A stretch of 33,608 nt of DNA from an uncultured Desulfuromonadales bacterium (GTDB taxonomy: Bacteria; Desulfobacterota; Desulfuromonadia; Geobacterales; CAIOGM01). How positions within the stretch are numbered: position 1 is the stretch's first letter; each line of letters starts with the position of its first letter. Below, in pieces: positions 14,839 through 31,340 of this stretch. Under the pieces are notes generated by a model. That model was not told the origin of the DNA. It saw nothing but the letters and a program-made list of their open reading frames with translations, and did not search any database. A program made the translations under genes and the position numbers. The stretch is from positions 1 through 33,608 of the forward strand of contig CAIYUY010000177.1 of NCBI GenBank assembly GCA_903929485.1. The letters run 5' to 3'.

Positions 14839-15693
14839 ATGGAAAACGGACTGACTATCGATGTGGAAGAGTGGTATCATCTCTGCGGCTCAGATCCCCT
14901 GCCGGAGCCGGAGGGGCGAGATCGTAGGGTAATGGAAAACACCAGTGCAATTCTGGCGCTTCTTCATGATTTTAGTGTTACTGCTACTTTTTTCATTCTC
15001 GGCAGCGTGGCGCAAGCGGAGCCCACCCTGGCGCCGCTCATCGCCGGGGGAGGGCATGAAATCGCCTCCCATGGGTGGTCTCACGAGCTGGTGACGAAGC
15101 TGGCGCCTGAAGAGTTCCGGGAGGAACTGCGGCGCACCGCCGATCTCCTTGAACAGCAGACAGGGAGACGCCCCTTGGGGTACCGTGCTCCCCAGTGGTC
15201 ACTGGGGCCTTTGACCCCCTGGGCCTTCAAGATTCTTCGGGAAGAGGGGTATCGTTACGATTCTAGTCTCACTCCGCTTCCGTTTGTGGGTGATCGGCGC
15301 GGACCACGAATTCCTCACCTGATCGCCGGCGGGCTGCTGGAATTTCCACCGCTGGTTACGCCGTTTCCCGGTATCAATCTTCCCACCGGCGGCGGTTGGG
15401 GGTTTCGGTTCTTTCCACGTTCCTTTATAACAGGGAGCATCGGGAGGTTGAACGACCGCGGTTCTCCGGCGGTCCTTTATCTTCACCCCCGTGAGATGGA
15501 ACCTGACGGCCCCCGGGTGAGGCTCTCCCCCTTTCGGGAGTTCGTGGTTTACGGCCCCCGTCGTTCGGTGGCGGATCGGCTGAGGCCGCTTTTGTCACGT
15601 TACCGGTTTACCTCTTTGGAGCGTCTGGCTGACCAGTGGGATACTGCATCATCATTCCGGCATACAATGCCGCCTCGACCCTTCCCGCCGTAG
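14839..15693 (+). CDS. Polysaccharide deacetylase (NodB-type, CE4)
   Basis: A 284-residue cytoplasmic NodB-fold protein, first gene of the biosynthetic cluster. Motif 1 TIDVEEWYH has Asp8 in the metal/catalytic position, like the TVDVEDYF form in exopolysaccharide-associated deacetylases. Motif 2 HEIASHGWSH gives metal ligands His78 and His82. GYRAPQWS supplies the motif 3 Arg, and YLHPRE near residue 215 is the final His motif. All catalytic motifs are present. It removes an acyl group, usually N-acetyl, from a sugar; no signal peptide, so it acts inside the cell on a nucleotide- or lipid-linked sugar. Its 3' end overlaps the glycosyltransferase start by 58 bases. Together they could make and trim a sugar head group. 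Confidence 0.9.
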   Translation: MENGLTIDVEEWYHLCGSDPLPEPEGRDRRVMENTSAILALLHDFSVTATFFILGSVAQAEPTLAPLIAGGGHEIASHGWSHELVTKLAPEEFREELRRTADLLEQQTGRRPLGYRAPQWSLGPLTPWAFKILREEGYRYDSSLTPLPFVGDRRGPRIPHLIAGGLLEFPPLVTPFPGINLPTGGGWGFRFFPRSFITGSIGRLNDRGSPAVLYLHPREMEPDGPRVRLSPFREFVVYGPRRSVADRLRPLLSRYRFTSLERLADQWDTASSFRHTMPPRPFPP

Positions 15694-16298
15694 CGATTGA
15701 GGCGCTTCTTTCCGGGGCGCCGCTGCTGGTAGTGGATGATGGCTCAACGGATCTCACCGCCAGGTCGGTGGAGGGGCTTCCGCTGAACCTGATCCGTCTT
15801 GACCGGAATCGGGGGAAAGGGGCCGCGTTGAAGTGCGGCTTTGACTGGATGTTCCTGCACGGATTCACCGGTGCGGTTACCCTGGACGCCGACGGTCAGC
15901 ACGATCCCACGGCCATCGGGCTCTTGGCCGCGGCCGCACAGCGGGACGGCGTGGACATCCTCATCGCTTCCCGCTCGGTTCAGTTTGACCGGATGGCGGG
16001 GCTCCGGAGCTGGTGGAACCGGTTCGGCGCATGGTGCATGAAGAAAAAGACCGGGTTCCATATCACCGACAGCCAGTCGGGATTCCGTTATTACTCGTCG
16101 CGGCTGCTCAGGACTCTGGAACTTGACGCCGTCGGGTATAATCTTGAGATGGAAATACTTATGAAGGCTTGGCGCGGCGGCTTTCGTATCGCCTCCTTGC
16201 CGGTGGCGGCCAGGGTTGCCGATGGCAGGGGAACCAGCCATTTCCGGCCGGTCCGGGACACTTGGAATATCTGCATGACTTTTCTTCGGTACTATTGA
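15636..16298 (+). CDS. Family 2 glycosyltransferase (dolichyl-phosphate-mannose-synthase-like)
   Basis: A 220-residue GT-A enzyme from a GTG at 15636, inside the deacetylase gene; the second residue leads straight into the first strand (YCIIIPAYNA), so a later start would damage the fold. Key motifs: VVDDGSTD (34-39), RNRGKGAALKCGF, and the metal-binding TLDADGQHD (Asp84-x-Asp86), then DSQSGFRYYS and YNLEMEILMKA. These fit DPM1/DPG-type enzymes that transfer one sugar from a nucleotide donor to a lipid phosphate or lipid acceptor. There are no transmembrane helices. Aryl polyene clusters also carry a GT2. With the deacetylase it suggests a glycosylated lipid product. The acceptor is unknown. 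Confidence 0.88.
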   Translation: MGYCIIIPAYNAASTLPAVAIEALLSGAPLLVVDDGSTDLTARSVEGLPLNLIRLDRNRGKGAALKCGFDWMFLHGFTGAVTLDADGQHDPTAIGLLAAAAQRDGVDILIASRSVQFDRMAGLRSWWNRFGAWCMKKKTGFHITDSQSGFRYYSSRLLRTLELDAVGYNLEMEILMKAWRGGFRIASLPVAARVADGRGTSHFRPVRDTWNICMTFLRYY

Positions 16299-16465
16299 GA
16301 GTGTGACCCCATGCTGCAACAATTGACTTTTTTACTTTGTTTGAGAGTGTGATCCCATGCTGCAACAATTGACCTTTTTTACCTTGTTTGAGAGTGTGAC
16401 CCCATGCTGCAACAGTTGACTTTTTTTACCTTGTTTGAGAGTGTGACCCAATGTTGAAAAGTTTG
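16295..16465 (+). repeat. Tandem 46-47-bp repeat in the leader of the SPASM radical SAM gene
   Basis: Three full units (16295-16340, 16341-16387, 16388-16434) begin TTGAGAGTGTGACCCCATGC and differ at only a few bases. A partial fourth unit starts at 16435 and runs into the SPASM radical SAM gene, whose ATG at 16451 is in the same place as the ATG within each repeat. Each unit therefore carries a start codon opening a mini-frame (MLQQLTF...). Confidence 0.92.
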
Positions 16466-17809
16466 AAAAACTATTCCACGGAAAAGATCGTATCCCTTCT
16501 CCTGTCGTTGGCGGGCTCCTGCTCCACTGAAAATCTTGCCCGGATGACCCATCTCATGGAGCTGATCCCCCGGAAGGAGTCTTATAAGGAAAAGATCCGG
16601 TGGATCAGGCGACTTATTCTGGAAAACCACCCTTCCATCGAATTCCCGCGGCGGATTCTCCGGGATGTGCATCCCAACCAACGGGACAAATGGATTACTA
16701 ACCTGACGGTGAACCACCTCCTCTCCGGAACCAACAAGCGGAAAGCCTGGGAGGAGCGGGAGGGGTACTATCCCCCTTCCACCGTGGTCATCAGCCTGAC
16801 CATGAAGTGTAATCTTTCCTGCTACGGCTGCTACGCCGGTGACTATGAGAAGGAGTTGGAGCTGACCAATGACGAGGTGGATTCCATCCTCACCCAGATG
16901 AAGGAGATGGGGGTCTACTTTGCGGTCATTTCCGGCGGCGAACCGTTTTTCAAGAAGGATCTCTTCGATATTTTCCGAAAACATTCAGACATGGCCTTTT
17001 TGGTCTTCACCCATGGCGGGCTCATCGACGAGCAGGTGGTGGAACAGCTGAAAGAAGTGGGCAATGTCATGCCGGCTTTTTCCCTGGAAGGGTACGAAGC
17101 GGAAACCGACGAGCGCCGCGGGGCAGGGCATTTTAACAAGGTGATGCGGGCCATGGATCTTCTTCGGGAGGCGCGGCTCACCTTCTGCGGCTCCTTTACC
17201 CAGACCAGCCGGAACAACCATATCATCACCGACGGCCGGTACATGGATTTTCTTCTGGAGAAAGGGGTTTATGCTCTCTGGCTCTTTACCTATGTGCCGG
17301 TGGGACGGGAGCCTGATCCGGAGCTGATGGCGACTCCGGAACAGCGGGATCTGCTCCGTTCCCGGATTGCTGAATTTCGCGCCAGTAAGCCGATGCTCTT
17401 CGTGGATTTCTGGAATGACGGCCCTCTCATCAGTGGTTGCATCGCCGGTGGGCGCAAATATTTTCACATTAATGCCAATGGCGACATCGAGCCCTGCGTT
17501 TTTTGTCATATGGCGGTGGACAACATTCGCCGGACATCCCTCAGGGAGGCGCTTCGCTCACCCCTGTTCACCAGAATTCGAGAAAAACAGGGGGAGGAGG
17601 AGAATCTCCTCCGCCCCTGCATGCTCCTGGATCATCCGGAAAACGGTCGGGAGTTTCTTGCCATGGATGGGGTTTACCCCACTCACGGCGGGGCCGACGC
17701 CATCTTTACGGAGCTGGCGCCGCGAATGGATGAATATGCCCGGCGTTATGGCGAGATTGCCGATCAGGTTTGGGAAGAGGGGGCGGGCAGGGGCGTCCCG
17801 CGCTCATGA
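16451..17809 (+). CDS. Radical SAM/SPASM-domain protein
   Basis: A 452-residue enzyme. The radical SAM cluster motif CNLSCYGCYAG (Cys120, Cys124, Cys127) is followed by SGGEPFFKKDL (161-171), which binds SAM. The C-terminal SPASM part includes GCIAGGRKYFHINANGDIEPC, then CVFCHM and RPCMLLDHPE, enough cysteines for an auxiliary iron-sulfur cluster. The first 110 residues are helical and have no obvious domain. SPASM enzymes modify peptides, sugars or lipids, and here the lipid-assembly neighbours suggest a small molecule or acyl chain. The start at 16451 sits inside a partial fourth copy of the upstream tandem repeat and lacks a strong Shine-Dalgarno. Its stop overlaps the acyltransferase start (ATGA). 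Confidence 0.9.
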   Translation: MLKSLKNYSTEKIVSLLLSLAGSCSTENLARMTHLMELIPRKESYKEKIRWIRRLILENHPSIEFPRRILRDVHPNQRDKWITNLTVNHLLSGTNKRKAWEEREGYYPPSTVVISLTMKCNLSCYGCYAGDYEKELELTNDEVDSILTQMKEMGVYFAVISGGEPFFKKDLFDIFRKHSDMAFLVFTHGGLIDEQVVEQLKEVGNVMPAFSLEGYEAETDERRGAGHFNKVMRAMDLLREARLTFCGSFTQTSRNNHIITDGRYMDFLLEKGVYALWLFTYVPVGREPDPELMATPEQRDLLRSRIAEFRASKPMLFVDFWNDGPLISGCIAGGRKYFHINANGDIEPCVFCHMAVDNIRRTSLREALRSPLFTRIREKQGEEENLLRPCMLLDHPENGREFLAMDGVYPTHGGADAIFTELAPRMDEYARRYGEIADQVWEEGAGRGVPRS

Positions 17810-18681
17810 CCCTTTACAGCGGTCTGAGCCTTTTTCTGATCAACCTGTTCACCCATCTGGTACCCCGTCGGCTCTTTCCCCTTTTCGCCCTCTTGACCGG
17901 CTGGTTGGTGTACCTCTTCGTCCCCCTGCAGCGGCGCGGGATGCGGGAGAACCTCCGGATCGTTACCGGGCGCAAGTCAGTGGAGTGGCTGGTTCTGTGC
18001 GCTTTTTATAAGTACTCCCGTAACTGGACCGACGTCATGTTGATGATCCGGTTGCGGGGAGAGCGGCTCTTTCGCCTTATCGGCCATCGCTCCAGCAGCC
18101 GGCCATTGGACCATGCCTTGGCCGCCGGCGCCGGGGCCATTCTGGTTTCGCCGCACCTGGGTAACTGGGAACTGGGGGGGGTGGGGCTGGCGGAAATGGG
18201 GTACAAACTTAATGTCATGACCTTTCGGGAGCCCGATGAGGCGGTGAACGATCTGCGGGAAAAGTTTCGTTGTGAGCGGGGAATCGGCATCATCTATGTG
18301 GACCGCAACGACAGTTCTCCCCTGGCGATTATCGAGGCGGTAAATGCCCTGCGACGCAACGAAATTGTGGTTCTCCTGGGAGAGCGGGATGGTTCATCGC
18401 ATACCCTGCTCCTGGACTTCTTCGGACGTTCCACGGAGATCCCGGTGGGCGCCGCCTACCTGGCTTTGACCAGCGGCGCGCCGGTGATACCGGTCTTTGT
18501 CCCGCTGGAAGGGGGTAGTTACTCCACCTACATGGAGGAGCCGATCTATTTTGCGGGAAAACATGGAGAACATGCCGCGGTCATCCGGGAGGGGACCCAG
18601 CGACTGCTCCGGGTCTTTGAACAGTACATCCGGCGCTACCCTGACCAGTGGTACAATTTTTTTCCCTACTGGCGTAACTAA
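17806..18681 (+). CDS. Lipid A biosynthesis-type lysophospholipid acyltransferase (LpxL/HtrB family)
   Basis: A 291-residue enzyme; the ATG at 17806 overlaps the SPASM gene stop (ATGA), better than the GTG-type reading 36 bases upstream. The N-terminus is a hydrophobic membrane anchor (LFLINLFTHLVPRRLFPLFALLTGWLVYLF, shorter LFALLTGWLVYLF). Catalytic HLGNWE gives the H-x4-E dyad (His117, Glu122). IYVDRND and VVLLGERDG, then GAPVIPVF and WYNFFPYW match the family. Such enzymes transfer an acyl chain from ACP to a sugar or glycerolipid acceptor at the inner face of the inner membrane. The ACP gene follows 22 bases later, so the ACP-bound chain is the likely donor. Aryl polyene clusters have a homologous step. 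Confidence 0.92.
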   Translation: MTLYSGLSLFLINLFTHLVPRRLFPLFALLTGWLVYLFVPLQRRGMRENLRIVTGRKSVEWLVLCAFYKYSRNWTDVMLMIRLRGERLFRLIGHRSSSRPLDHALAAGAGAILVSPHLGNWELGGVGLAEMGYKLNVMTFREPDEAVNDLREKFRCERGIGIIYVDRNDSSPLAIIEAVNALRRNEIVVLLGERDGSSHTLLLDFFGRSTEIPVGAAYLALTSGAPVIPVFVPLEGGSYSTYMEEPIYFAGKHGEHAAVIREGTQRLLRVFEQYIRRYPDQWYNFFPYWRN

Positions 18682-18703
18682 CGTTTATTCAAAAGGAACC
18701 AGC

Positions 18704-18961
18704 ATGTCCGAGGAACTCATAGAACCGGTGAAGCAACTCATTATCGACGCCCTTCGCATCGAGGGGATGACCTCGTCCGACATCGAGACCGACGCCCCGC
18801 TCTTCGGGGAGGGACTGGGTCTCGACTCCATCGATGCCCTGCAACTGGTCGTGGCCATGGAAAAAGAGTACGGAGTGGTGGTTCCCGATGCCGCCACCGG
18901 CGCCAAGGTCTTCCAGTCTGTCCGGAGCATGGCCGCGCATATTGCGGAACATGGGAAATGA
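18704..18961 (+). CDS. Acyl carrier protein
   Basis: An 85-residue ACP with start ATG at 18704 after AAAAGGAA at 18691-18698. The phosphopantetheine attachment site is LGLDSIDAL with Ser42. It has the usual acidic four-helix pattern, with EKEYGVVVPD in helix 3/4. It is the only ACP in the cluster; typical aryl polyene systems carry two. It should hold the growing chain for the ketosynthase, FabG, dehydratase and thioesterase encoded downstream, and hand it to the acyltransferase upstream. Its stop overlaps the following radical SAM start by 4 bases, so the two are translationally coupled. Confidence 0.95.
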   Translation: MSEELIEPVKQLIIDALRIEGMTSSDIETDAPLFGEGLGLDSIDALQLVVAMEKEYGVVVPDAATGAKVFQSVRSMAAHIAEHGK

Positions 18962-20247
18962 AAATCCTCTTTGTCTCCCCCGGTTGGCCCAAAGGGCGGC
19001 TTTGGGGAGAACTTGGGTTCAAATTTCCCTCCCTCTCTTTGGCGGCTCTTGCGGCGGTGACTCCCGACAACTTTCAGATTGCCCTTTGTGACGAAAACAT
19101 TGAACGGTTGGATCCGGGAGTGGCTGTGGATCTGGTGGCTATCACCGCCATGACCCCCCAGGCGCCGCGAGCCTATGCCATTGCCGATCTCTTCCGGGCC
19201 AAGGGAATTCCCGTGGTGATGGGTGGGTTTCATGCCAGCGTCCTTCCGGAAGAGGCCCTGGAACATGTGGATTCGGTGGTGGTGGGGGAGGGGGAGGCTG
19301 TCTGGCCCCGACTGCTGGACGATTTCCAAAACGGTTCGATGGCGCCGCTCTACAGTGCCCAGCGTCTCGTTGCCATGGCCGACATCCCCACTGCGCGCCG
19401 CGCCCTGTTCGCGGGGAAGAGGTACCTGCTTACCAATACTCTCCAGACCACCCGCGGTTGCCCCTTTGAGTGTGAATTCTGTTCGGTCACCTCCTTTTAT
19501 GGCCGAAACTACCGGACCCGGCCGGTGGCGAATGTCCTGGCCGAACTGACGGAGCTTCGGAAAAAGAATTCCTTCGCCTTTTTCGTGGATGACAATCTGG
19601 TGGCCAATCGGTCCTATGCCCTGGAACTCTTCACCGGGATGAAGGGGATGGGATTCAAATGGCTTTCCCACGCCCCCATCGACTTCGGCCGCGACCCGGA
19701 ACTCCTCCGTGCCGCCGGGGAGTCCGGTTGCATCGGTCTGTTCGTCGGTTTCGAGTCACTGAATCAGGAAACGCTGGCGGCCATGGGAAAGGTGACCAAC
19801 CGGGCTACCTCCTACCTGAATGACGCCAAGGCTTTTCGTGATCACGGCATCGGCATCCTCGGTTCTTTTGTCCTTGGCTCCGATGGAGACAGTCCCGATA
19901 TTTTTCCCCGGATTCTCGCTTTTTGCGAGGAGGCGCGGCTGGAGTCGGCCATCTTCCCGATCCTGACCCCCTATCCGGGGACCGAGGTGCGCCGGAGGCT
20001 GGAGCTGGAGGGGAGGATCGTCTCCAATGCCTGGGAAGATTACGACATGGGGCATGTCACCTTTCTCCCCAGGGGGATGACCGCCGGGGAGCTACAGGAA
20101 GGTCATGATTTTCTCAATCGCTCCTTTTACTCTCTTGGTTCCATGTATCGCCGGATTTTTAAGGCCCATCGGTCGGTGCAGGTCTTTGCCCCCATGAACT
20201 TCGGTTTTCGCAGCGCCATTGGGCGTTGTGCAAAGGTTTGTTTATGA
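18958..20247 (+). CDS. B12-binding-type radical SAM enzyme A
   Basis: A 429-residue enzyme with an N-terminal Rossmann-like B12-binding-type domain (ILFVSPGWP, VAITAMTPQAPRAYAIADLF, VVMGGFHASVLPEEAL, VVVGEGE), then a radical SAM core with RGCPFECEFC (Cys168, Cys172, Cys175), FFVDDNL, GCIGLFVGFESLN and FPILTPYPGTE. There is no DxHxxG motif in the N-terminal domain, so cobalamin would bind base-off without that His, as in BchE/HpnJ-type relatives. It overlaps the ACP stop (ATGA) and the next acyltransferase. It is a close paralogue of enzyme C at the cluster's end: both have MGGxHxSVLPEEAL and GITAM/AITAM blocks. Expected chemistry is methylation or a C-C/cyclising rearrangement; the substrate is unknown, perhaps an acyl-ACP. 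Confidence 0.9.
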   Translation: MKILFVSPGWPKGRLWGELGFKFPSLSLAALAAVTPDNFQIALCDENIERLDPGVAVDLVAITAMTPQAPRAYAIADLFRAKGIPVVMGGFHASVLPEEALEHVDSVVVGEGEAVWPRLLDDFQNGSMAPLYSAQRLVAMADIPTARRALFAGKRYLLTNTLQTTRGCPFECEFCSVTSFYGRNYRTRPVANVLAELTELRKKNSFAFFVDDNLVANRSYALELFTGMKGMGFKWLSHAPIDFGRDPELLRAAGESGCIGLFVGFESLNQETLAAMGKVTNRATSYLNDAKAFRDHGIGILGSFVLGSDGDSPDIFPRILAFCEEARLESAIFPILTPYPGTEVRRRLELEGRIVSNAWEDYDMGHVTFLPRGMTAGELQEGHDFLNRSFYSLGSMYRRIFKAHRSVQVFAPMNFGFRSAIGRCAKVCL

Positions 20248-21089
20248 ACTGTTTCATGTTTCCCGGACAACCGCTTTCCCGCTCACCGCGACTCCCCCAG
20301 GACGACGGTTGGCGACAGATTGCGGAACTCTGCCGGCGGCACGCACTGTTCGATCCCGACTCTTGGCAGTGGTTCGCCGTGGATGGCACGGAGAACGTGG
20401 CGCTTCAGGTTTACGGCGTGGCCATGAGCCTCCATGGGGCGCGTCTCCTGAAGAAGAGGGGGGTGAAGCCGGGAATCGTCGCCGAGCATAGCATGGGGAT
20501 CTACCCGGCCATGGCTCTCTGCGGTTCCCTGCCGGAAGAGGCGGTACTGGAGATTACCAGCAGGGGGGGGCGAGCCATGGCGACCATGGGGAAGTCGAGG
20601 CAATACGCTCTGGGTTGCGTGGTGGGGTTGACGCTGGAGCCATTGCTCGCCTTGGCGAAAAACCACGGGGTTTATCTGGCCAACCGGAACACAGATCGTC
20701 ATTTTCTTCTTGCCGGGGAAGAGCTTCCCATGGAAGCCGCCATGGCGGAGGCTCTGTTTGCCGGCGCTTTTTCCTCCGGAACTTTTCCCTGCGATGCTCC
20801 GCTCCATACTCCCCTGATGGCGGAGGTGGAGCAAAAACTGAGGACGGTTTTTGCCGACTACCGCTACCGAGATCCGGTTGCTCCGCTCATGAACCATATA
20901 GATCAGACGTATCTTACCGGTTGCGACCTGGGAGAATTTCTTTACCGGGAACTTCTCCTCCCCGTGCAGTGGGAACGGACCTACCGGGCTCTTTTGGACG
21001 CGGGCGCCACCAATTTTTGCGAAGTGAGCGGTAAAGAGTCGCTAAAAAAATACAATCGCTGGATTGACAGCCAGTTGCAGGGGAATTGA
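20244..21089 (+). CDS. FabD-like acyltransferase (malonyl-CoA:ACP transacylase fold)
   Basis: A 281-residue protein. The ATG at 20244 overlaps the radical SAM stop (ATGA); a TTG at 20226 is less likely. It has the FabD start pattern FMFPGQ, the nucleophile elbow EHSMG (Ser83; usual FabD is GHSLGE) and the second catalytic His in CDAPLHTPLM (His188). Catalytic Ser and His are therefore kept, but the elbow Gly is Glu and the rest is divergent. The Arg that binds malonyl carboxylate is not certain: SRGGRAM lies at about the right place. It may load malonyl or another acyl starter onto the ACP. Nothing in the cluster resembles an AMP ligase, so this gene may be the only loading enzyme. Confidence 0.8.
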   Translation: MNCFMFPGQPLSRSPRLPQDDGWRQIAELCRRHALFDPDSWQWFAVDGTENVALQVYGVAMSLHGARLLKKRGVKPGIVAEHSMGIYPAMALCGSLPEEAVLEITSRGGRAMATMGKSRQYALGCVVGLTLEPLLALAKNHGVYLANRNTDRHFLLAGEELPMEAAMAEALFAGAFSSGTFPCDAPLHTPLMAEVEQKLRTVFADYRYRDPVAPLMNHIDQTYLTGCDLGEFLYRELLLPVQWERTYRALLDAGATNFCEVSGKESLKKYNRWIDSQLQGN

Positions 21090-21095
21090 CGCGCC

Positions 21096-21518
21096 ATGAC
21101 TTGGTTTGAAACTTCTCTTACGGTTCGCTTCAACGAGGTGGATGCCTATCAGGTGGCTTGGCACGGGCATTATGTGGCCTGGATGGAGGTGGGACGTAAC
21201 GCTCTGGCCGGACGATTCCAGCTTAACGCCCAACAGATCGGTGATGCCGGCTATCGGGCGCCGGTGGTAAACCTTGAGCTGAAGTACAAACGGCCGGCCA
21301 GATTCAACGAGGTGTTGGTCATTGGAACGACTGTTCGCCGCAATGAAACCGCTACCCTGGAGTTCCTCACCAGGATTACCGGCGCCGATGGCTTGATCAT
21401 CGCCAGCGGTCGTACCGTCCATGTTCTCACCGATGAACAGGGGACCCTCCTCTACCGGCTCCCCCCTACCATCGCCGGGCGTCTGGAGCGGATGTTTGCC
21501 TCACTGGAGGGAGAATGA
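21096..21518 (+). CDS. 4-Hydroxybenzoyl-CoA-type hotdog thioesterase
   Basis: A 140-residue hotdog-fold protein. The catalytic motif VRFNEVDAYQVAWHGHYVAW matches V-R-x-x-D-x-D-x-x-x-x-x-x-N/H-Y, with Asp16 in the position of the 4-HBA-CoA thioesterase nucleophile/base. A QIGDAGYRAPVVNLELKY segment follows, as in YbgC/FcbC-like enzymes. Start ATG at 21096 is 6 bases after the previous stop, without a strong Shine-Dalgarno, so translation may be reinitiated. It probably hydrolyses or edits an acyl-ACP or acyl-CoA; aryl polyene clusters contain a similar thioesterase. The last bases overlap the next radical SAM start (ATGA). Confidence 0.9.
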   Translation: MTWFETSLTVRFNEVDAYQVAWHGHYVAWMEVGRNALAGRFQLNAQQIGDAGYRAPVVNLELKYKRPARFNEVLVIGTTVRRNETATLEFLTRITGADGLIIASGRTVHVLTDEQGTLLYRLPPTIAGRLERMFASLEGE

Positions 21519-22900
21519 GACTCCTCCTGGTTTCGGCCAACCGGGAACGGTCACCCTACCCGGTTTTCCCCATCGGTCTGGCCTATCTGGCCGGCCCCCT
21601 GGTTCGTGCCGGGCATCACCTGGAGCTTGTGGATCTCTGCTTCTCTCCGGAGCCGTTGCGGGATTTGGCCGATGCCGTGACCCGTTGTTCTCCCGACGCC
21701 ATCCTCATCTCCTTGCGCAACGTGGATAACGTTACCTGGCCCGGTTCTCGTTCCTACCTGGAAGGAATCCGGGAGGCCGTGGCCGTCTGCGGAGGGGGTG
21801 CGCCGATCATCCTGGGGGGCTCCGGCTTCTCTCTCATGCCGGCAGAGCTGCTGGAGTTCCTGGGTGGGGATATGGGCATCGTGGGTGAGGGTGAAGAGAT
21901 CATCATCCCGCTCCTTGAGATCCTTGAACAGGGGGGGACCCCTGTCGGGCTTCCCGGCGTGCTGGTGAGAGGGAATATCTCCTGGCTGCCACCGGTCCCG
22001 GTGACGGCGATCGGAGCCCCGGACAGGACGCTTTTTCCCCTTGGACGCTACTGCCGCGAGGGGGGGATGGCCAACCTGCAGACCAAGCGGGGATGCCCCT
22101 TCGGCTGTATCTACTGCACCTATCCCCTCCTGGAAGGGACCCGGATCAGGCTCCGACCCGTGAACCAGGTCATGGCCGAGATTAATGGGTTAGTGAATTT
22201 TCACGGCGTGGAGTACCTCTACTTCGTGGATGATATCTTCAACTTTCCCCCTGAATACGCGTTGGAGCTCTGTCAGGCCATGAGCAGGGGAGGGGTAAAG
22301 GTCAACTGGTCCGCCTTCATCAACCCCCAGTTCGTCACTCCCCAGCTCATGGATGCCATGGTGGCGGCCGGCTGCGACGCGGTGGAGTATGGCACCGATT
22401 CCGGGTCACCGGCCATGCTCCGCTCCCTGGCCAAATCGTTCACCGTGGCGCAGATCCGAAGCGCCTCCGCGCTCTGCCGTGAACGGGCTCTTGATTTTGC
22501 CCACTACATCCTTTTCGGCGGGCCGGGTGAGTCGGTGGCGACCATTGACGAGACCTTTGCTCTCATGGACGAGGTCGACCCTACGGCGGTCATCGCCATG
22601 ACCGGAATCCGGATCTTCCCCGGCACCCCTCTTCAGGGTCAGGCTATCAGGGACGGGATAATCACCGCTGAGAGTTCGCTTCTGGAGCCGACCTTCTACA
22701 TCTCACCCTTACTGGGGGATTCATTGGCCGACCTGGTGACTGAGCGGGCGCTGCTCCGGCGCAACTGGGTGGCGCCGGGGCTGGAGATCAACATGAGCGA
22801 CCCCATGCTGGAGGCGCTCCGGACCTTTGCCGTGCGAGGTCCCCTCTGGAAACTGATGAAGCGGCTGGGACGAAGCAGGGTACGGCCAATGACCGGATAA
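21515..22900 (+). CDS. B12-binding-type radical SAM enzyme B
   Basis: A 461-residue enzyme. N-terminal B12-type domain: LLLVSANRERSPYPVFPIGLAYLA, then SPDAILISLRN, PIILGGSGFSLMPAEL and GIVGEGEE. Radical SAM motif RGCPFGCIYCTYP (Cys194, Cys198, Cys201), then LYFVDDIFNFPP, GCDAVEYGTDSGS, HYILFGGPGES and FPGTPL. It resembles the radical SAM enzymes that occur with lipid-assembly genes and is less like enzymes A and C than they are like each other. The start overlaps the thioesterase stop. Downstream, a 190-base gap holding an inverted-repeat element separates it from FabG. Substrate unknown; possibly acts on the ACP-bound chain. Confidence 0.9.
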   Translation: MRLLLVSANRERSPYPVFPIGLAYLAGPLVRAGHHLELVDLCFSPEPLRDLADAVTRCSPDAILISLRNVDNVTWPGSRSYLEGIREAVAVCGGGAPIILGGSGFSLMPAELLEFLGGDMGIVGEGEEIIIPLLEILEQGGTPVGLPGVLVRGNISWLPPVPVTAIGAPDRTLFPLGRYCREGGMANLQTKRGCPFGCIYCTYPLLEGTRIRLRPVNQVMAEINGLVNFHGVEYLYFVDDIFNFPPEYALELCQAMSRGGVKVNWSAFINPQFVTPQLMDAMVAAGCDAVEYGTDSGSPAMLRSLAKSFTVAQIRSASALCRERALDFAHYILFGGPGESVATIDETFALMDEVDPTAVIAMTGIRIFPGTPLQGQAIRDGIITAESSLLEPTFYISPLLGDSLADLVTERALLRRNWVAPGLEINMSDPMLEALRTFAVRGPLWKLMKRLGRSRVRPMTG

Positions 22901-22921
22901 TACAATTTATTTCAAAAACAT

Positions 22922-23059
22922 TTATCCACGAAGGGCACGAAGTTTCACGAAAAAAATCAAAGAGTCATTCGCACGAAACAGTAAACCGAACAAGTGGTTG
23001 ATTTGACTAATACATCTGTAACGGTTTCCTTGGTCTATCTTCGTGCCCTTCGTGGATAA
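22922..23059. repeat. MITE-like element with 21-bp perfect terminal inverted repeats
   Basis: TTATCCACGAAGGGCACGAA at 22922-22941 (21-bp arm to 22942) and its exact complement at 23039-23059 bracket 96 bases with no gene. CACGAAGGGCACGAAG-type repeats are frequent between genes in this lineage, as far as I know. It sits in the middle of the biosynthetic operon and would form a long RNA hairpin before the FabG start. Confidence 0.85.
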
Positions 23060-23087
23060 CAGCTTTTTTTGGATTATCGAGGTGCAC

Positions 23088-23828
23088 ATGGAGTTTGCAG
23101 ACAAGATCGTCGTCGTCACCGGCGGGACCCGCGGCATCGGACGGGCCGTTTCCCTGCACTTCGCTCGTGAGGGAGCAAAAGTTTTTGCCGCTTATCGTCA
23201 TAATGCCGAGGCTGCAAAATCCCTGGAAGATGAAGCCGTCGGGCTTCCCGGCATGGTTACCACCTTTCGGGCTGACGTGGGGAGCTCGCAAGGGGCTATC
23301 GCCCTCATTGATGCGGCGGCGCGCGAGACGGGGGGGATCGATATCCTGGTAAACAACGCCGGAATCATCCGGGACTGTTATCTGGCCATGATGTCCGATG
23401 ACGATTGGGACAGGGTGATCAAAAATAATCTCGATCCCCTGTTCCACTGCTGCAAATGGGGAGTGAGGAAGATGATCGGCGGAAAAGGGGGCGCCATCGT
23501 CAACCTCTCCTCTGTTTCCGCCCTCACCGGCGCCGCCGGTCAGACCAACTACGCAGCCAGCAAGGGGGGGATCATCAGCTTCACCAAGTCCCTGGCCCGT
23601 GAGGTCGGTCCCCTGGGGATCAGGGTCAACGCCGTGGCTCCCGGTCTCATCCGGACGGAGATGGTTGCCGGAATGAAGCCCGACCAGGTGAAAAAGATCA
23701 TTGCCGGGAGCAGTATCGGTCGGCTTGGCGCACCGGAGGAGGTGGCCCAGGCGGTGGCTTTCCTTGCTTCCCCCCGGGCATCCTATATCAACGGCCACTG
23801 TCTCGTGGTGGACGGCGGTATCGTCTGA
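23088..23828 (+). CDS. 3-Oxoacyl-ACP reductase (FabG/SDR)
   Basis: A 246-residue short-chain dehydrogenase. The start at 23088 follows GAGGTG; a farther-upstream start lies in the repeat element. NADPH-binding TGGTRGIG (11-18), NNAG (89-92), catalytic Ser142, Tyr155 and Lys159 (TNYAASKGG) are present, and PGLIRTEM and the C-terminal INGHCLVVDGG tail are of FabG type. It reduces the beta-ketoacyl-ACP made by the ketosynthase pair, before dehydration by the FabZ-like enzyme at 26163. It is the counterpart of the ketoreductase in aryl polyene clusters. Confidence 0.93.
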   Translation: MEFADKIVVVTGGTRGIGRAVSLHFAREGAKVFAAYRHNAEAAKSLEDEAVGLPGMVTTFRADVGSSQGAIALIDAAARETGGIDILVNNAGIIRDCYLAMMSDDDWDRVIKNNLDPLFHCCKWGVRKMIGGKGGAIVNLSSVSALTGAAGQTNYAASKGGIISFTKSLAREVGPLGIRVNAVAPGLIRTEMVAGMKPDQVKKIIAGSSIGRLGAPEEVAQAVAFLASPRASYINGHCLVVDGGIV

Positions 23829-23920
23829 TTATTCAAAAATTGTTTGTCTCCGGACGCCATAACGGGTAGGATATTTATCTCCATGGCGCTTGACTCTTTA
23901 TTCTTTATCTCAGGATCCTC

Positions 23921-25126
23921 ATGTTTGAATCATCCATCGCCATAACCGGAATCGGTGTCTTTTGCGCCGCGGGGCATGATGTTGCCACGTTCACCGCGGC
24001 CCTGCGCCGGGGGGAGAGCGGCATCGGTCCGGTGGAGCTTTTCGACGTAGCCGGATTCCCTTCCCATATCGGGGCGGAGATTCGCGGGTATGACCCGCGA
24101 CACCGTTTTGACCGGAGAGAGGCGGCCCGATTCTCCCGGGCGGATCAGTTCGCCGTCATTGCGGCCCAGGAAGCCCTGAACCGATCCGGTGCTCTGGCCT
24201 GGTATGATTCCTTTGACCTGGGGGTCTCCGTGGGGTCCGGCGCCGCCGGAATGCTTCACGGGGAACAATGGTTCAAGGGGGTGCTGGAAGGGAACCGGAA
24301 AGATCCGGCGCTCCTCGCGGGACTCCTGCCCGATCGGACCGCCACGGTGCTGGCCAATCGCTTTAACCTGGCGGGGTACCAGGGGAGTATCACCACGGCC
24401 TGTTCATCATCGGCCACGGCCATCGGCTGGGGAGCCGACCTTGTGGCCACGGGGAGGCTCAAGGCGGCCCTCTGCGGGGGGACAGACGCTCTTTCCCTTC
24501 TCACCTATGCCGGCTTCAACTCTCTCAGGGTGGTGGATCCCAACCCTTGCGCCCCCTTCAGCCTGGGGCGGGCAGGGATTTCCCTGGGCGAAGGCGCCGC
24601 CTTCCTGGTTTTGGAGCGGGAAGATGAGGCCCGGCGGCGCGGAGCAACAATCCTGGGGAGGGTGCGGGGATATGCCATGACCGGCGAAGGGTATCACATG
24701 ACCGCGCCGGAGCCTACCGGTTCCGAAGCGGCCCGGGTGATGAACTCCGCTCTGGAGCATGCCGGCCTCTCCGGCGACAGCGTGGGGTGGGTTAACGCTC
24801 ACGGCACCGGCACACCTCTCAACGACGCCGTGGAGACCAAGGGGATGAAACTCGTATTCGGCCGGAGGGCCCCGGTGGTGCCGCTGGTTTCCACCAAGGG
24901 GCTTACCGGGCACTGTCTGGGGGCTGCGGGAGCCATTGAAGCCTTGGCTACCATCATCGCTCTTGACGGCGGGTTTATCCCGCGGACGCTCCACTTCCGG
25001 GGAGCCGATCCTGACTGCGACCTGGAATACTGCCATGGCGGGCTCCGGGAGTCGGCAGCGGTCATCGCCCTCTCCAACTCCTTTGCCTTCGGCGGCAATA
25101 TTACTACCCTGGTGCTGGGAATATGA
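23921..25126 (+). CDS. Beta-ketoacyl-ACP synthase (FabF/KAS II type), catalytic subunit
   Basis: A 401-residue thiolase-fold enzyme with a complete triad: Cys161 in TACSSS, His294 in NAHGTGTP, His331 in KGLTGHCLGAAG with Lys326. AAFLVLERE and SNSFAFGGNI at the C-terminus are of KS type. It should condense malonyl-ACP with the growing chain. The stop overlaps the start of the degenerate ketosynthase (ATGA), the tight arrangement expected for a KS/chain-length-factor heterodimer. The spacer before it (23829-23920) has nothing I can name. The overall role matches the elongating KS of aryl polyene clusters. Confidence 0.95.
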   Translation: MFESSIAITGIGVFCAAGHDVATFTAALRRGESGIGPVELFDVAGFPSHIGAEIRGYDPRHRFDRREAARFSRADQFAVIAAQEALNRSGALAWYDSFDLGVSVGSGAAGMLHGEQWFKGVLEGNRKDPALLAGLLPDRTATVLANRFNLAGYQGSITTACSSSATAIGWGADLVATGRLKAALCGGTDALSLLTYAGFNSLRVVDPNPCAPFSLGRAGISLGEGAAFLVLEREDEARRRGATILGRVRGYAMTGEGYHMTAPEPTGSEAARVMNSALEHAGLSGDSVGWVNAHGTGTPLNDAVETKGMKLVFGRRAPVVPLVSTKGLTGHCLGAAGAIEALATIIALDGGFIPRTLHFRGADPDCDLEYCHGGLRESAAVIALSNSFAFGGNITTLVLGI

Positions 25127-26166
25127 GTCATTTTTCTCCCGTCATAACCGGCGTTGGCGCGGTCTCCGCCGCGGGGGTGGGGATCGAACTCCTCATGGCG
25201 GTCATACGGAGCGGTCGGCCCTGTTTTCAACCGGTTCCCCCTGAAGCGCTGGGGAGAGCGGGGGAGGAGTGGGCTCCCGCTTCGGCTTTTCGGGTTGCCG
25301 ATTTCATGCCGCCGCTGAAGGCGCGCAAATTCGATCGCTGCAGTCAGTTCGCCATCGTGGCGGCAGGGATGGCGCTGAAGGACGCCGGTATCACGCTGGA
25401 GGAGATGGACCCGACTCGTATCGGGATCGTTATGGGGTGTGGTTTCGGCGGGGTCACCAACTCCGCGGAGTTCCTGAAAGGGTACTTTTCCCAGGGCGCC
25501 GACGGTCTTATCCCCATGCTCTTCCCCAATACCGTCCCCAACGCCGCTGCCGGCAACAGTTCCATCGAATACCGGCTCAAGGGGCCCAATGTTACCATGG
25601 TGCAGCGGTTCTGTTCCGCCGAGTCGGCCCTTCTCCTGGCCCAGCGTTTCCTGGAGGAAGAGCGGGCGGATATCATGCTCGTGGGGGGGGTAGACGAGAT
25701 CATGCCGGTCATCCTGAAAGGGTTTCGCGCCCTGGGTCAACTCCGCCCGGGCGGTTCGGGTCGGGGATTCGGCGAGGGGGCCGGCATTCTGATCCTGGAG
25801 CGGGCGGATCATGCCCTCCGTCGCGGCGCCCGACTTCGGGGACGGCTTTGCGGGATCCGGACGCTGGGCCTTCTCCCCAGGGGACGGGAACAGGAGGGGC
25901 TTGCCCGACTCCTCTCCGGCTTTCCTCAACCGGAGCTCCTTTCCCTCTCCGGGGTCGCCGCGGGTTGCAAGGAATTGGCCGGACTCTTTCCCGGCGTCCC
26001 CCGTCTGGAGACCGGAGCGCTCCTGGGACGATCCCTTGCCATGGGAGGGATTGCCATGACGGCGCAGCTTTTGACCCTCGCTCCCGGGGCCACCGGCCTT
26101 CACCTGGCTGCCTCTCCGGAGGGACCGTGGTTTGCCGTCGGCTTCCAGGGAGCAGATGCTCCGTGA
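25123..26166 (+). CDS. Degenerate ketosynthase, chain-length-factor-like
   Basis: A 347-residue thiolase-fold protein, about 50 residues shorter than the preceding KS. The N-terminal half is well conserved (VITGVGAVSAAG, IVMGCGFGG, FPNTVPNAAAG). At the nucleophile position the sequence is VQRFCSAE: after aligning the GP block, Phe163 takes the place of the catalytic Cys, and the only Cys (164) is one residue later. The second half lacks HGTGTP and the K-x-x-x-GH motif. It is therefore probably not an independent condensing enzyme. The partner KS ends 4 bases into it, so a KS-CLF heterodimer that sets chain length, as in ApeO/ApeC or type II PKS, is the natural reading. Confidence 0.85.
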   Translation: MSHFSPVITGVGAVSAAGVGIELLMAVIRSGRPCFQPVPPEALGRAGEEWAPASAFRVADFMPPLKARKFDRCSQFAIVAAGMALKDAGITLEEMDPTRIGIVMGCGFGGVTNSAEFLKGYFSQGADGLIPMLFPNTVPNAAAGNSSIEYRLKGPNVTMVQRFCSAESALLLAQRFLEEERADIMLVGGVDEIMPVILKGFRALGQLRPGGSGRGFGEGAGILILERADHALRRGARLRGRLCGIRTLGLLPRGREQEGLARLLSGFPQPELLSLSGVAAGCKELAGLFPGVPRLETGALLGRSLAMGGIAMTAQLLTLAPGATGLHLAASPEGPWFAVGFQGADAP

Positions 26167-26540
26167 TTGACCCCGCCCGCCGACTCCCCCACCGCAACCC
26201 CTTCCTTTTTCTGGACCGTGTCACCCGGCTGGAACCGGGGGTGAGCGCCCAGGCAATCGCCCTGACCACCCATCTCCCCGCCTCCTCTCCGCTGCTCCTG
26301 GTGGAGGCCATGGCTCAGTTGGCCGGGGTCGTCGCCATTGAACGGGAAGGAGAGATCGGCTCCCTGGCGGCAATAGAGCGGGCGGAATTTCTGAAACCGG
26401 TGTCAGCGGGGGATTGCCTGACCATCGCCGTCCGGATAGTCAAGAGGTTCGGCCGTCTCATCCTCTGTGAAGGAGAGATCACCGTGGGGGGGGAAACAGT
26501 GGCCACGGCCACCCTCACCCTGGGGGTAGGGGCGCCATGA
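26163..26540 (+). CDS. FabZ/ApeI-like 3-hydroxyacyl-ACP dehydratase
   Basis: A 125-residue hotdog dehydratase from a GTG at 26163 that overlaps the previous stop (GTGA). The catalytic His10 is in LPHRNPFLFLDRV, matching FabZ H-R-x-P-F-L-x-x-D-R, and the acid Glu48 is in LLVEAMAQLAG. It is short, without the usual C-terminal extension, like ApeI of aryl polyene clusters. It removes water from the 3-hydroxyacyl-ACP. With no enoyl reductase in the window, the chain would keep its double bonds, as in a polyene. The last 4 bases overlap the LolA-like gene. Confidence 0.88.
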   Translation: MIDPARRLPHRNPFLFLDRVTRLEPGVSAQAIALTTHLPASSPLLLVEAMAQLAGVVAIEREGEIGSLAAIERAEFLKPVSAGDCLTIAVRIVKRFGRLILCEGEITVGGETVATATLTLGVGAP

Positions 26541-27184
26541 ATCGAAACAAGTTTTTCTCCGTCTCTTTGTCTCTCCGTGGTTCGGTTGTCGTTTTGCTGT
26601 TCTTTTCTCTTTTCGGTATCGCAACCATCGCCGCCGCCGACCCGCTCTCCCCCCTGGAGGGGCTGGAACTGCTTCGCCGGGGGTTCGCGGGGATGACCGA
26701 CTTTACCGCTGATATTACTCAGGAGAAAGAGCTGTCACTCCTGAAGAAGAAGCTGACCTCCACCGGTCGGGTCCGGTTTCGGCGTCCGGGAACCTTCTTC
26801 ATGGAGATTTCCCCACCCTACCCCAGCCGGCTCCTCCTGGAAAACAGCGACCTGACGGTCTTCTACCCCGCACAGAAGAGCCACCAGAAGATCCCGCTCC
26901 CCGCCGAGGAAGGGCTTGGAAAATGGTTTACCTATCTGGACAAACCTATCACCGCCCTCCCCCAGGGGGTGCTGATGCAGGCCGAGCGCCAAGGTGAGAA
27001 CTGCACCCTCAAGATTCAGCCCCAGGGGAAGCAGGGGGTCCGGGAACTGACCCTTTTTTTTCGGGACGATGGCCGGATCAGGAAAATCGTTATTGAAGAA
27101 CAGAACGGCGACCGGAACAGCATCACCTTCCGGACCATGAAGAAAAATGTGGGGCTCACGGAGAAGGAGTTCCGCCTGGAATGA
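26537..27184 (+). CDS. LolA-like outer-membrane lipoprotein carrier
   Basis: A 215-residue protein with an N-terminal signal (SVVVLLFFSLFGIATIAAADP) cleaved near residue 34. The LolA-type beta-barrel pattern follows: GMTDFTADITQEKELSLLKK, GRVRFRRPGTFFMEI, SRLLLENSDLTVFYP and LTLFFRDDGRIRKIVI. LolA-like proteins are soluble periplasmic carriers of lipids or lipoproteins; the copies in aryl polyene clusters are thought to carry the product across the periplasm. It is coupled to both neighbours by ATGA overlaps, directly before the MMPL exporter, which supports that role. Confidence 0.85.
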   Translation: MNRNKFFSVSLSLRGSVVVLLFFSLFGIATIAAADPLSPLEGLELLRRGFAGMTDFTADITQEKELSLLKKKLTSTGRVRFRRPGTFFMEISPPYPSRLLLENSDLTVFYPAQKSHQKIPLPAEEGLGKWFTYLDKPITALPQGVLMQAERQGENCTLKIQPQGKQGVRELTLFFRDDGRIRKIVIEEQNGDRNSITFRTMKKNVGLTEKEFRLE

Positions 27185-29769
27185 TGCAACGCCTCTTTGC
27201 CCTCCTCAACAGCGCCGTTACCCTCCACCTTGCCTGGATTTGGCGGATTTCCGTCCGTTTTCCTCGCATGGTCCTCCTGGGGACATTACTCCTCCTCTTC
27301 CCGGCCCTCTGGAGCGTGTCCACCACCCGTTTCGAATTCGACATCTTCCGGCTCTTTCCCGCGGAAAAGGGGGCGCTTCGGCTCTTTCTGGACTCCCTGG
27401 AGTGGACGGGAAGCGGTCAGGAGGCGTTTTTTGTTCTGGAAGGGGAGAAGAAGGAGTTGGTCCCGGCGGCGACGGAATTTGCCGGGAAGCTCTCCGCTCT
27501 CAAGGTGGACGGGAGACCGGCCTTTAAAAAAGTGACCTGGCGGACGGTGGATCCGGCAGAGGCGCAATCTTTCGCCGCCTTCGTCGGCTATGCGGTGACC
27601 CGGCCCGAACTCTTCCTTACTCCGGGGGATCTGGCGGCGCTGAAGGAGCGGTTCACTCCACAGGGGATGGACGAGGCGCTTGGGCGAGCTACTACCGAAC
27701 TTGCGGGCCAAGGGGGGATGATGTCACGGGAGCTCATCGCGCGAGATCCCCTGGGGCTCCGTGAGCTGATCCTCCCCCGGCTTCGCCAGGGAAGCCGGAC
27801 CCTGGATCTGGATAGTTCCTCTCCCTATTTTCTTTCCCGGGACGGCCGGGTCCTGGTTATTATCGCCGAACCGGCGCGACCGGTGCAAGAGATGGCCTTT
27901 GCCCGCAAGCTGGTGGCGGCTATCAACCAGGCCCGGTCCGGCTCCCCGGTGCATATCTCCTGCGCCGGAGCCCATCTGAGCGCGGTTATTGACGAGGCGA
28001 GCATGAAGGGGAATATCGTCTCCTGCATCGTCTCGTCTCTGATTGTGGTCCTGGGGATATTCTATTTCACCTATCGGCGGCTCCTCCCCACGCTTCTTAT
28101 TCCGGTAATCATCTTCTGTGGCGCCTTTCTGGCCCTGGGGACGGCGGGGCTCTTTCTCTCCTCAATCCATATCATCTCCTTCGCCTTCACCGCTCTCATC
28201 ATCGGTCTCGGCACCGATTATTCCATTCATATTTACGACCGGTTCTATTGTGAGCGGGCGGCAGGGGCCGATGCCCGGGAGGCGCTCCGGCTGGCCATCA
28301 CCCATACCGGTCACGGAGTCTTCACCGCCGCCGTCACCACGGCCGTGCCGTTTCTGGCCCTCACCATTTCTCATGTCAGGGCGCTCTTTGAACTGGGGCT
28401 TCTCGTGGGAGTGGGGGTGCTCTTTTCCCTGTACGCCACCTATTTTTTCCTGCCGCCGCTCCTCATCTTCATCGAGAGGCGATTTCCCCTGGCGGTTTAT
28501 CGACCTCTCCCCACCTTCGGATTGGGCCGGCTCTGGGATGGTTGTACCCGGTTTCGACGGGGGATCACCGTGGGAACCATCCTGCTGGTTCTGCTTCTTC
28601 TGGCGGCGGCGACCCGGCTGGGGTTCGAGGGGGATCTGAAAAAACTCCAGCCGCGGGAGTCGGAGGCGATGCTGACCCAGGAGAAGATTGAGCGGCACCT
28701 GAATCTGAGTCCCAAGTCGCTCATGGTGGCCGTGGAGGGGACCGATCTTGACGAGGTTCTGAACAGGGGAGCCAAGGCCGATCTCCTGGCTGAGCGGTAT
28801 CGGCGGCGGGGGGAACTGGTCGCCTGGTCGTCCCTGGGGCAGATTATCAATGGTCCCCAGCGGCAGCGGGAGATGACGACTCAACTGGCGACGCTCCTGG
28901 GAGGAAGCGATCCGTCGGGGAAACTTCATCTTGCCCTGGAGCGGAACGGGTTCGATCCTCTCCCCTTTGCACCGGCGTTGGCAGGGATCGCCGCATTTGC
29001 CGATTCTCGAATCAACGGGGCGGAAGAGGCGGTGAAGAGGCTCTCCGCTTCGCCGTTGAAGGGGGTGGTGGAGCGGCACCTGGTCAAGCATGATGGTGTC
29101 TGGCGGCTCCTCAGTCACCTTGCCTACCGGGGAGAGGAGTTTCATCGGGACCGGTTCCTGGGGGAGTTGGCGGTTGAGGTTCCCGGAGCGAGGGTAACCG
29201 GTATCGACCTGGTGGGGGAACAGCTCGCCTTGTCGGTGCGGCAAAGTTTCGGCTGGAGTTTCCTCCTGGGGGGAATCCTCGTCATGCTCCTCCTCATGTC
29301 CCATTTCGGGTCAGGGGGAGGGATCCTTGCCTCACTCTTTCCGGTCTTTGCCGGAGGAATCGCCATGCTGGGACTCATGGTCCTCACCGGGATGAAAATC
29401 AACTTTATGAATTCCATGGTTGTCGTCACCATTTTAGGGATGGGAAGCGACTACGGGCTCCACATCTTTCACCGGGCCGGCTCCATTGGGCCGAAACAGC
29501 GTGAGAATTTCATCCAGGCAGGGCGGTCCGTGTTCCTCTCGGCTCTCACCACGGTTGCCGGCTTCGGTTCCCTGGCCTTTACCGATTACGGCGCCATGTC
29601 TTCCATCGGCTGGGCCACCAACTACGGCGTCATCGCCACAGCTCTCTTTTCCCTGGCATCCTTGCCGGCGCTGCTGGCGTTGCGTGGCTCATCGCGCAAG
29701 CCGGACAAGCCGGAACCAAACAGGAAAGTCTTAAGCCGGACAAGCGAGAACCAAATAGGACGCGGATAA
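27181..29769 (+). CDS. MMPL/RND-family lipid exporter
   Basis: An 862-residue inner-membrane protein. TM1 is near residue 30-48, followed by a periplasmic domain of about 220 residues, five TM helices at about 280-440, TM7 near 465, a second periplasmic domain, and five TM helices at 690-840. The two MMPL/RND signature TM motifs are GLGTDYSIH (from 342, Asp346) and GMGSDYGLH (from 753, Asp757), the expected proton-relay positions. MMPL proteins of this HpnN-like class export lipids. The start overlaps the LolA-like gene, so carrier and pump are probably made together. Aryl polyene clusters have the same pair. Confidence 0.92.
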   Translation: MMQRLFALLNSAVTLHLAWIWRISVRFPRMVLLGTLLLLFPALWSVSTTRFEFDIFRLFPAEKGALRLFLDSLEWTGSGQEAFFVLEGEKKELVPAATEFAGKLSALKVDGRPAFKKVTWRTVDPAEAQSFAAFVGYAVTRPELFLTPGDLAALKERFTPQGMDEALGRATTELAGQGGMMSRELIARDPLGLRELILPRLRQGSRTLDLDSSSPYFLSRDGRVLVIIAEPARPVQEMAFARKLVAAINQARSGSPVHISCAGAHLSAVIDEASMKGNIVSCIVSSLIVVLGIFYFTYRRLLPTLLIPVIIFCGAFLALGTAGLFLSSIHIISFAFTALIIGLGTDYSIHIYDRFYCERAAGADAREALRLAITHTGHGVFTAAVTTAVPFLALTISHVRALFELGLLVGVGVLFSLYATYFFLPPLLIFIERRFPLAVYRPLPTFGLGRLWDGCTRFRRGITVGTILLVLLLLAAATRLGFEGDLKKLQPRESEAMLTQEKIERHLNLSPKSLMVAVEGTDLDEVLNRGAKADLLAERYRRRGELVAWSSLGQIINGPQRQREMTTQLATLLGGSDPSGKLHLALERNGFDPLPFAPALAGIAAFADSRINGAEEAVKRLSASPLKGVVERHLVKHDGVWRLLSHLAYRGEEFHRDRFLGELAVEVPGARVTGIDLVGEQLALSVRQSFGWSFLLGGILVMLLLMSHFGSGGGILASLFPVFAGGIAMLGLMVLTGMKINFMNSMVVVTILGMGSDYGLHIFHRAGSIGPKQRENFIQAGRSVFLSALTTVAGFGSLAFTDYGAMSSIGWATNYGVIATALFSLASLPALLALRGSSRKPDKPEPNRKVLSRTSENQIGRG

Positions 29770-29924
29770 ACGCGGATCTAAAACATAAAAACCTAACCAA
29801 TGCGATTCTTTGCTGCTTCTCTACCGGGATTCAAAAGAAAAGCCTTTGATAATTGTCGTTAAAAAATAACAAGCAATAGAGCGGCCTGAGAGTGAATAGA
29901 GAGGTTGATCCGCGTCTATCCGCG
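29761..29924. repeat. Inverted-repeat element before the last radical SAM gene
   Basis: CGCGGATAAACGCGGATC (29761-29778) and GATCCGCGTCTATCCGCG (29907-29924) are inverted with one mismatch and partly extended by CGCGT. The left arm overlaps the 3' end of the MMPL gene. The 128 bases between are AT-rich and show no gene. It is a second intra-operon repeat, different from the one at 22922. Confidence 0.8.
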
Positions 29925-30005
29925 TTAATCCGCGTGCAATGGTTTTTAATTTTCAAGTTTGCTCCGTTTTTGCCGATTGAAGTTGCAAGAGACTGAAGAG
30001 GATTC

Positions 30006-31340
30006 ATGAAAAAAAGAGTCGCTCCCCGTCTTCTTCTCGTCTATCCGGCGACCCATAAACTTGGATGGGTGAGGCGGTTCCAGCTCCCCTCCCACTCGCT
30101 CCAGCAGGTGGCCGCCGTCGTTCCTCCTTCCTGGGAGGTGACCCTGGTGGATGAGGTGCATGAGGATATCCCCTGGGACCAATCCTATGATCTGGTGGGG
30201 ATCACCGCCATGTCCCATCAGGCGCCCCGGGCCTACGAGATAGCCGATCGGTTTCGCGCCCTTGGAATTCCGGTGGTCATGGGGGGGATTCACCCGTCGG
30301 TTCTTCCCGAGGAGGCTCTGCTTCATGCTCATGGGGTGGTGGTGGGTGAAGCGGAGCCGGTCATGGCGCGGCTTCTGGACGATTGCCTGAACGGACGGCT
30401 GGAACCGGTTTACCGCTCCTTCCCCTCTGACGATAATCTTCTCACGGTCCCTTGGCCCCGCCGGGAACTCCTGGCCGGGAAACGGTATCTCACCACCCAG
30501 ACGATACAGGCCAGCCGGGGGTGTCCCTACGATTGTCCCTTCTGTACGGTTACCCCCTATTTTGGCCGGAGTTTCCGTTATCGGGATCCTGACGACATTC
30601 TGGCGGAACTTCGCTCCTTCAGCGGCCGGCTCACGATCTTTCTTGATGATAACATTCTGGGGGACCCGGAACGGGCCCGGCCGATCCTCAAGGGGATGGT
30701 GGGGATGGGGCTCAAGTGGGGGGGGCAGGCAAACCTCAGGTTTGCCGAAGATCCGGAATTGGTCCGACTGGTGGCCGCCTCGGGGTGTATCGGCATCTTC
30801 GTGGGGATCGAGAGCGCTTCCGGCAGTTACGCCAAGCTCCCCAAAAACAGCGGCGGTTCCTCACCTGTAGATCTGATCCGGCGGGTGCGGGATGCGGGGA
30901 TCGTCCTGGAAGCGTCTTTCATCTTCGGTTTTGACGACCATGATGAAAGTGTCTTTGATCGGACCTTGCGCTTTTTGGACGACTCCTCTCCCGGGGTCGC
31001 CACCTTCAACGTCCTCACTCCCTATCCCGGCACGGCGCTTTACCGGCAGTTTCAAGAGGAGGGACGGATACTCCACAAGGATTGGAGCCGTTACGATCAC
31101 TCCCAGGTGGTCTTTCGCCCCAAGCTCATGACCCCCCAACGGCTTTACCGGGGATGGCTGGAGGTGCGACGGGAGGTGTACCGCTGGCCGGCCATCTTCT
31201 CCCGCGTCCTTTCCTCTCCACGGGGGCGGTTTACCACCCTGGCCTATAATCTGCTGCGGCGTGGGGGAAATCTATCCGCCGCCGACCTGGCCCTGCTGGC
31301 GGCTCATGACCTGTCCCGATCCGGTTCAGGGGGGGGGTGA
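30006..31340 (+). CDS. B12-binding-type radical SAM enzyme C
   Basis: A 444-residue enzyme. N-terminal B12-type domain: LLLVYPATHKLGWVRRFQLP, DLVGITAMSHQAPRAYEIAD, VVMGGIHPSVLPEEALLH, VVVGEAEP. Radical SAM motif RGCPYDCPFC (Cys173, Cys177, Cys180), then IFLDDNILG, GCIGIFVGIESAS, ASFIFGFDDHDE, LTPYPGTALYRQF. It is a clear paralogue of enzyme A (18958-20247) along its length, so the two may act in sequence on related substrates or one may be a duplicate with a new role. Its last codons are glycine/serine-rich (SRSGSGGG). The stop overlaps a decayed ABC ATPase start (ATGA), suggesting the operon once continued into transport genes. Confidence 0.9.
   Translation: MKKRVAPRLLLVYPATHKLGWVRRFQLPSHSLQQVAAVVPPSWEVTLVDEVHEDIPWDQSYDLVGITAMSHQAPRAYEIADRFRALGIPVVMGGIHPSVLPEEALLHAHGVVVGEAEPVMARLLDDCLNGRLEPVYRSFPSDDNLLTVPWPRRELLAGKRYLTTQTIQASRGCPYDCPFCTVTPYFGRSFRYRDPDDILAELRSFSGRLTIFLDDNILGDPERARPILKGMVGMGLKWGGQANLRFAEDPELVRLVAASGCIGIFVGIESASGSYAKLPKNSGGSSPVDLIRRVRDAGIVLEASFIFGFDDHDESVFDRTLRFLDDSSPGVATFNVLTPYPGTALYRQFQEEGRILHKDWSRYDHSQVVFRPKLMTPQRLYRGWLEVRREVYRWPAIFSRVLSSPRGRFTTLAYNLLRRGGNLSAADLALLAAHDLSRSGSGGG

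Follow-up and report, generated by a model that had tools for sequence, protein, structure and literature searches.

The junction between a glycosyltransferase gene and a radical SAM/SPASM gene in the window (the whole 33,608-nucleotide stretch of DNA that was analyzed, from an uncultured Desulfuromonadales bacterium) is occupied by a tandem array of units of about 47 bp. Each unit copies the gene-gene junction, with the upstream stop codon. The array is no proven regulatory switch; it most likely stems from an accidental duplication that was tolerated and that shifted the SPASM start away from the glycosyltransferase.

The array was recovered by TRF at 16295-16453 (period 47, 3.4 copies, 93% matches, score 276), and an ungapped repeat finder gave unit spacings of 46, 47 and 47 bp along the same interval. 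In the array region, lagged identical runs reached 28 nt, compared with at most 11 in 40 Markov resamples; head-to-tail copies so far over chance are those of a tandem repeat array (minisatellite). The SD and the ATG are intact in all four units, each ATG lying 3' of TTGAGAGTGTGA(C/T)CC(C/A) (Table 1), and the units are distinguished from each other by substitutions. The initial annotation had described a tandem 47-bp array with an ATG in the same context in every unit. The array is real, but its first spacing is 46 bp and unit 2 departs from the shared context, reading GTGTGATCCC. An assembly artefact is unlikely since the units differ by substitutions; one draft genome stands behind the sequence. 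The unit was found at a single locus in the 5.36 Mb genome searched, and no further copy of the array spacer was found in this genome.

Table 1. Features of the glycosyltransferase/SPASM junction, in window coordinates.
Feature	Position	Strand	Details
GT2 glycosyltransferase	15636..16298	+	Pfam PF00535, 3.5e-18
Repeat unit 1 (46 nt)	16295..16340	+	ancestral stop/SD/ATG junction; matches the empty site over SD and start region
Repeat unit 2 (47 nt)	16341..16387	+	SD, ATG 16357; TRF, ungapped finder, resampling
Repeat unit 3 (47 nt)	16388..16434	+	SD, ATG 16404; TRF, ungapped finder, resampling
Partial fourth unit, with the true start ATG 16451 and its SD	16435..16465	+	start position conserved in relatives
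Mini-ORF 1	unit 1 onward	+	ATG 16311, 13 codons, stop 16350-16352
Mini-ORF 2	unit 2 onward	+	ATG 16357, 20 codons, stop 16417-16419
Mini-ORF 3	unit 3 onward	+	ATG 16404, 17 codons, stop 16455-16457
Radical SAM/SPASM protein, 452 aa	16451..17809	+	Pfam PF04055 2.7e-18, PF13186 2e-8

The stop codon of the glycosyltransferase gene (TGA, 16296-16298) falls within repeat unit 1, and the C-terminus of its product, NICMTFLRYY*, is the same in the closest relative (L036) and in a congener (L037). On the other side of the array, the start of the SPASM gene at 16451 is backed by relatives, which read MLQSLKNYSTEK... where the window reads MLKSLKNYSTEK...; orthologues of the SPASM protein within the order are 69-93% identical. 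Genes for an acyltransferase, B12 radical SAM proteins, a FabD-like and a FabF-like protein and a thioesterase are located 3' of the SPASM gene, and the product of 21515-22897 scores above the cutoff for the ladderane-type lipid radical SAM family TIGR04072. At 14839-31340 the window holds a ladderane-type lipid cluster of a Geobacter relative, with FabF, FabZ-like, FabD-like, MMPL and LolA genes near 21515-22897. A surface-type protein is encoded at 54-2834; it carries five Listeria-Bacteroides repeats (a 210 bp repeat at the DNA level) and, after them, Kelch repeats.

Comparison with relatives gives the state of the junction before the array. Two congeners (L037 and L038) keep a compact empty junction, in which the glycosyltransferase stop, the SD and the SPASM start lie within 2-14 nt; the sequence is TATTGAGAGTGTGACCCCCTATGCTGCAAAGC in L037 (stop-to-start gap of 14 nt) and CTGAGAGTGTGACCATGCTGCAA in L038 (2 nt). 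The same gap is 2-55 nt in 25 relatives, against 152 nt in the window and 145 nt in L036. Unit 1 matches the congener empty site over GAGAGTGTGACC..ATGCTGCAA, and the units are thus copies of the ancestral start region with its stop codon. The proposal in the initial annotation that the units are copies of the translation-start region of the SPASM gene is borne out here, as the empty site of the two congeners matches unit 1. The ancestral ATGCTGCAA is better kept in units 1-3 than at the true start, which now reads ATGTTGAAA. All congeners examined have a single SPASM start, and the array was not found in 140 other genomes of the order, where the sole matches were a short SD/start stretch in two congeners. 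The match in one genome (G002) extends into the array spacer (CAATTGACCTTTTTTACCTTGT), which weakly hints that the spacer may descend, with decay, from a copy of the last codons of the glycosyltransferase gene; the best pair between the spacer and the glycosyltransferase 3' end had a p of 0.005-0.04, uncorrected.

We consider it probable that the array arose by a lineage-specific tandem duplication of about 47 bp at the glycosyltransferase/SPASM junction, mostly neutral and surviving at a gene boundary. The stop codon, the SD, the ATG and the first codons would have been duplicated in tandem, and the repeat would later have grown to three extra copies, the first copy retaining the end of the upstream gene and the last copy the start of the downstream gene. 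Such a duplication would have survived because neither protein is altered when the duplicated segment runs from a stop across the following start; being invisible to both, duplications of this kind should persist where one gene meets the next and resemble copied start regions. The anatomy of the array could be accounted for in this way without a dedicated function. The SPASM start would no longer be coupled directly to glycosyltransferase termination and would instead be initiated independently, with the mini-ORFs helping or not; perhaps the three mini-ORFs partly stand in for the lost coupling. We infer a neutral origin for the most part, together with loss of direct coupling. The conservation of SD and ATG from unit to unit could be explained by selection, but also by the youth of the array.

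The same junction was split a second time, in the closest relative. In L036 a MITE (L036:5862-5990) is inserted in the same SD of the SPASM gene, with GAGAGTGT on each side. This copy and others in its genome (G003) are about 125 bp long, with the family consensus ends GTAACTACTCAGG and CCTGAGTAGTTAC; 54 matches were found in this sister genome and two in the window's own genome, and most copies examined are flanked by duplications of 6-10 bp (about 8 bp). The MITE and the array are alike in occupying one junction and in leaving GAGAGTGT, the SD stretch, at either side, and an SD remains before the SPASM ATG after both events. One junction was thus split by two independent events; the MITE insertion shows that tight spacing can be lost at this spot. 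The MITE is mobile, with terminal inverted repeats and its 54 matches, whereas the array has neither; a mobile element or dispersed repeat was rejected as the source of the array, which has no inverted ends and whose unit and spacer occur nowhere else in the genome.

Other arrays of similar period were sought with TRF in a 1.18 Mb sample of the window's own genome (L104-L203, roughly one fifth of the draft genome). This sample contains 36 strong arrays with periods of 20-120, 10 of them at 46-48. When periods of 37-57 are considered, 10 of 16 arrays have a period of 46-48 (P about 1e-5). An independent count of exact runs in the own-genome sample placed 7 of 12 at 46-48 (P about 5e-4), and the same count on 1.03 Mb from relatives placed none there. 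By eye, the unit sequences of the 46-48 bp arrays are unalike. Two of them copy translation starts. The start of rnc (RNase III) is duplicated as 47 bp x2 on the minus strand (L130:10759-10851, own genome C23), in identical copies with a single extra base between them, and a gpsA junction carries stop, SD and ATG within a 48 bp unit repeated x2.9, also on the minus strand (L122:4373-4512, own genome C19). Congeners match both the rnc and gpsA loci as a single copy where the flanks align, as judged from match coordinates only. A further 48 bp array is located directly before pilM, and in a congener an mlaD-like start bears one of 49 bp. TTGACA was found inside three 46-48 bp arrays (L155, L165 and L186); one of the three precedes a tRNA-like gene. 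This genome often makes or keeps tandem duplications of about 47 bp, and the starts of rnc and gpsA bear them too. We regard as tentative, and on balance unlikely, the broader reading that a duplication process determined by size and not by sequence operates genome-wide at about 47 bp, creating start relays that alter the coupling of neighbours at operon junctions.

A functional reading of the array, on balance unlikely, is that ribosomes leaving the glycosyltransferase gene reinitiate at mini-ORFs 1, 2 and 3 in turn, which would maintain coupling of the two genes over 152 nt. From the glycosyltransferase stop it is 12 nt to the start of mini-ORF 1, whose own stop ends 4 nt before the second ATG; mini-ORF 2 ends 13 nt past the third, and mini-ORF 3 ends 4 nt past the true start codon, within ATGTTGA. 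Coupling by termination-reinitiation goes with stop/start overlap or a separation within about 20-40 nt; the junction as a whole lies beyond this, and such distances are found only link by link, via the mini-ORFs. In tested E. coli pairs reinitiation was nearly abolished at 38 nt (PMC10666635), so coupling across 152 nt is likely looser, and direct coupling would be expected to fail unless a relay operates. There is also a precedent in the natural small ORF of the mgtC-mgtB gap, which promotes mgtB translation (PMC8092293). The positions of the mini-ORF stops are, however, a mechanical result of unit length and TGA content, and the SD is modest (-6.6 kcal/mol duplex). Local accessibility is similar at all four starts and does not discriminate among them.

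The initial annotation suggested that mini-frames in the copies could act as ribosome decoys and that copy number may vary by slippage and tune expression; the extra ATGs would then lower SPASM output. We find this doubtful, although the tandem units are near-identical and each has an SD and an ATG. With mini-ORFs ending at or near the next ATG, a relay fits no worse than a decoy. Engineered tandem RBS-start units in Bacillus likewise place SD and start in tandem before a gene, and their output varies with unit number (PMC9723656). Those units raise output, and they are synthetic, each start giving a longer protein form at an effective SD spacing of 15-21 nt, whereas the units described here are natural, out of frame and spaced 46-47 nt. 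Slippage would, moreover, be slowed by the substitutions between units.

A promoter or protein-binding sites within the repeats seem improbable. Units 1 and 2 have promoter-like 9/12 matches, TTGAC is present in every unit and other 47 bp arrays of the genome duplicate TTGACA-bearing regions, but the -10 is poor (AACAAT) and unit 3 loses the promoter match. A structured RNA leader or riboswitch was rejected on the lack of an Rfam match and on a leader fold weaker than that of shuffles (z +1.08), and a phage origin on the lack of a match among phage records.

Among known repeats, MIRUs form one sequence family scattered over a genome and carry short ORFs that overlap the flanking stop and start. 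The mini-ORFs of the array similarly overlap or abut the flanking stop and start. The nearest natural case is the MIRU array of the mycobacterial senX3-regX3 intergenic region, for which an effect on translation of the downstream gene has been proposed (PMC7884335); like the array, it has units some tens of bp long, repeated in tandem between two operon genes of the same orientation. Unlike this dispersed family, with homologous units at many loci, each array here is a copy of the junction at which it lies, and the unit of the SPASM array occurs at one locus. In Beggiatoaceae, heptamer repeats (TAACTGA) upstream of start codons are comparable as direct repeats right before start codons across a genome (PMC4679880), but their motif is fixed, 7 bp long and not SD-like, whereas the units of the array are long and contain SD and start. 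The array is a local tandem repeat; its novelty is that several arrays of this genome, with almost the same period, each copy the gene start at which they lie. We found no description of this in the open-access text covered by a limited search.

As the empty-site comparisons show, a tight operon junction can be split by a duplication or by a MITE with neither protein harmed. The SPASM, gpsA and rnc arrays form a natural test set for whether serial start sites act as a relay, act as decoys or are inert. The excess of arrays at 46-48 bp, if true genome-wide, would indicate a duplication mechanism with a preferred length.
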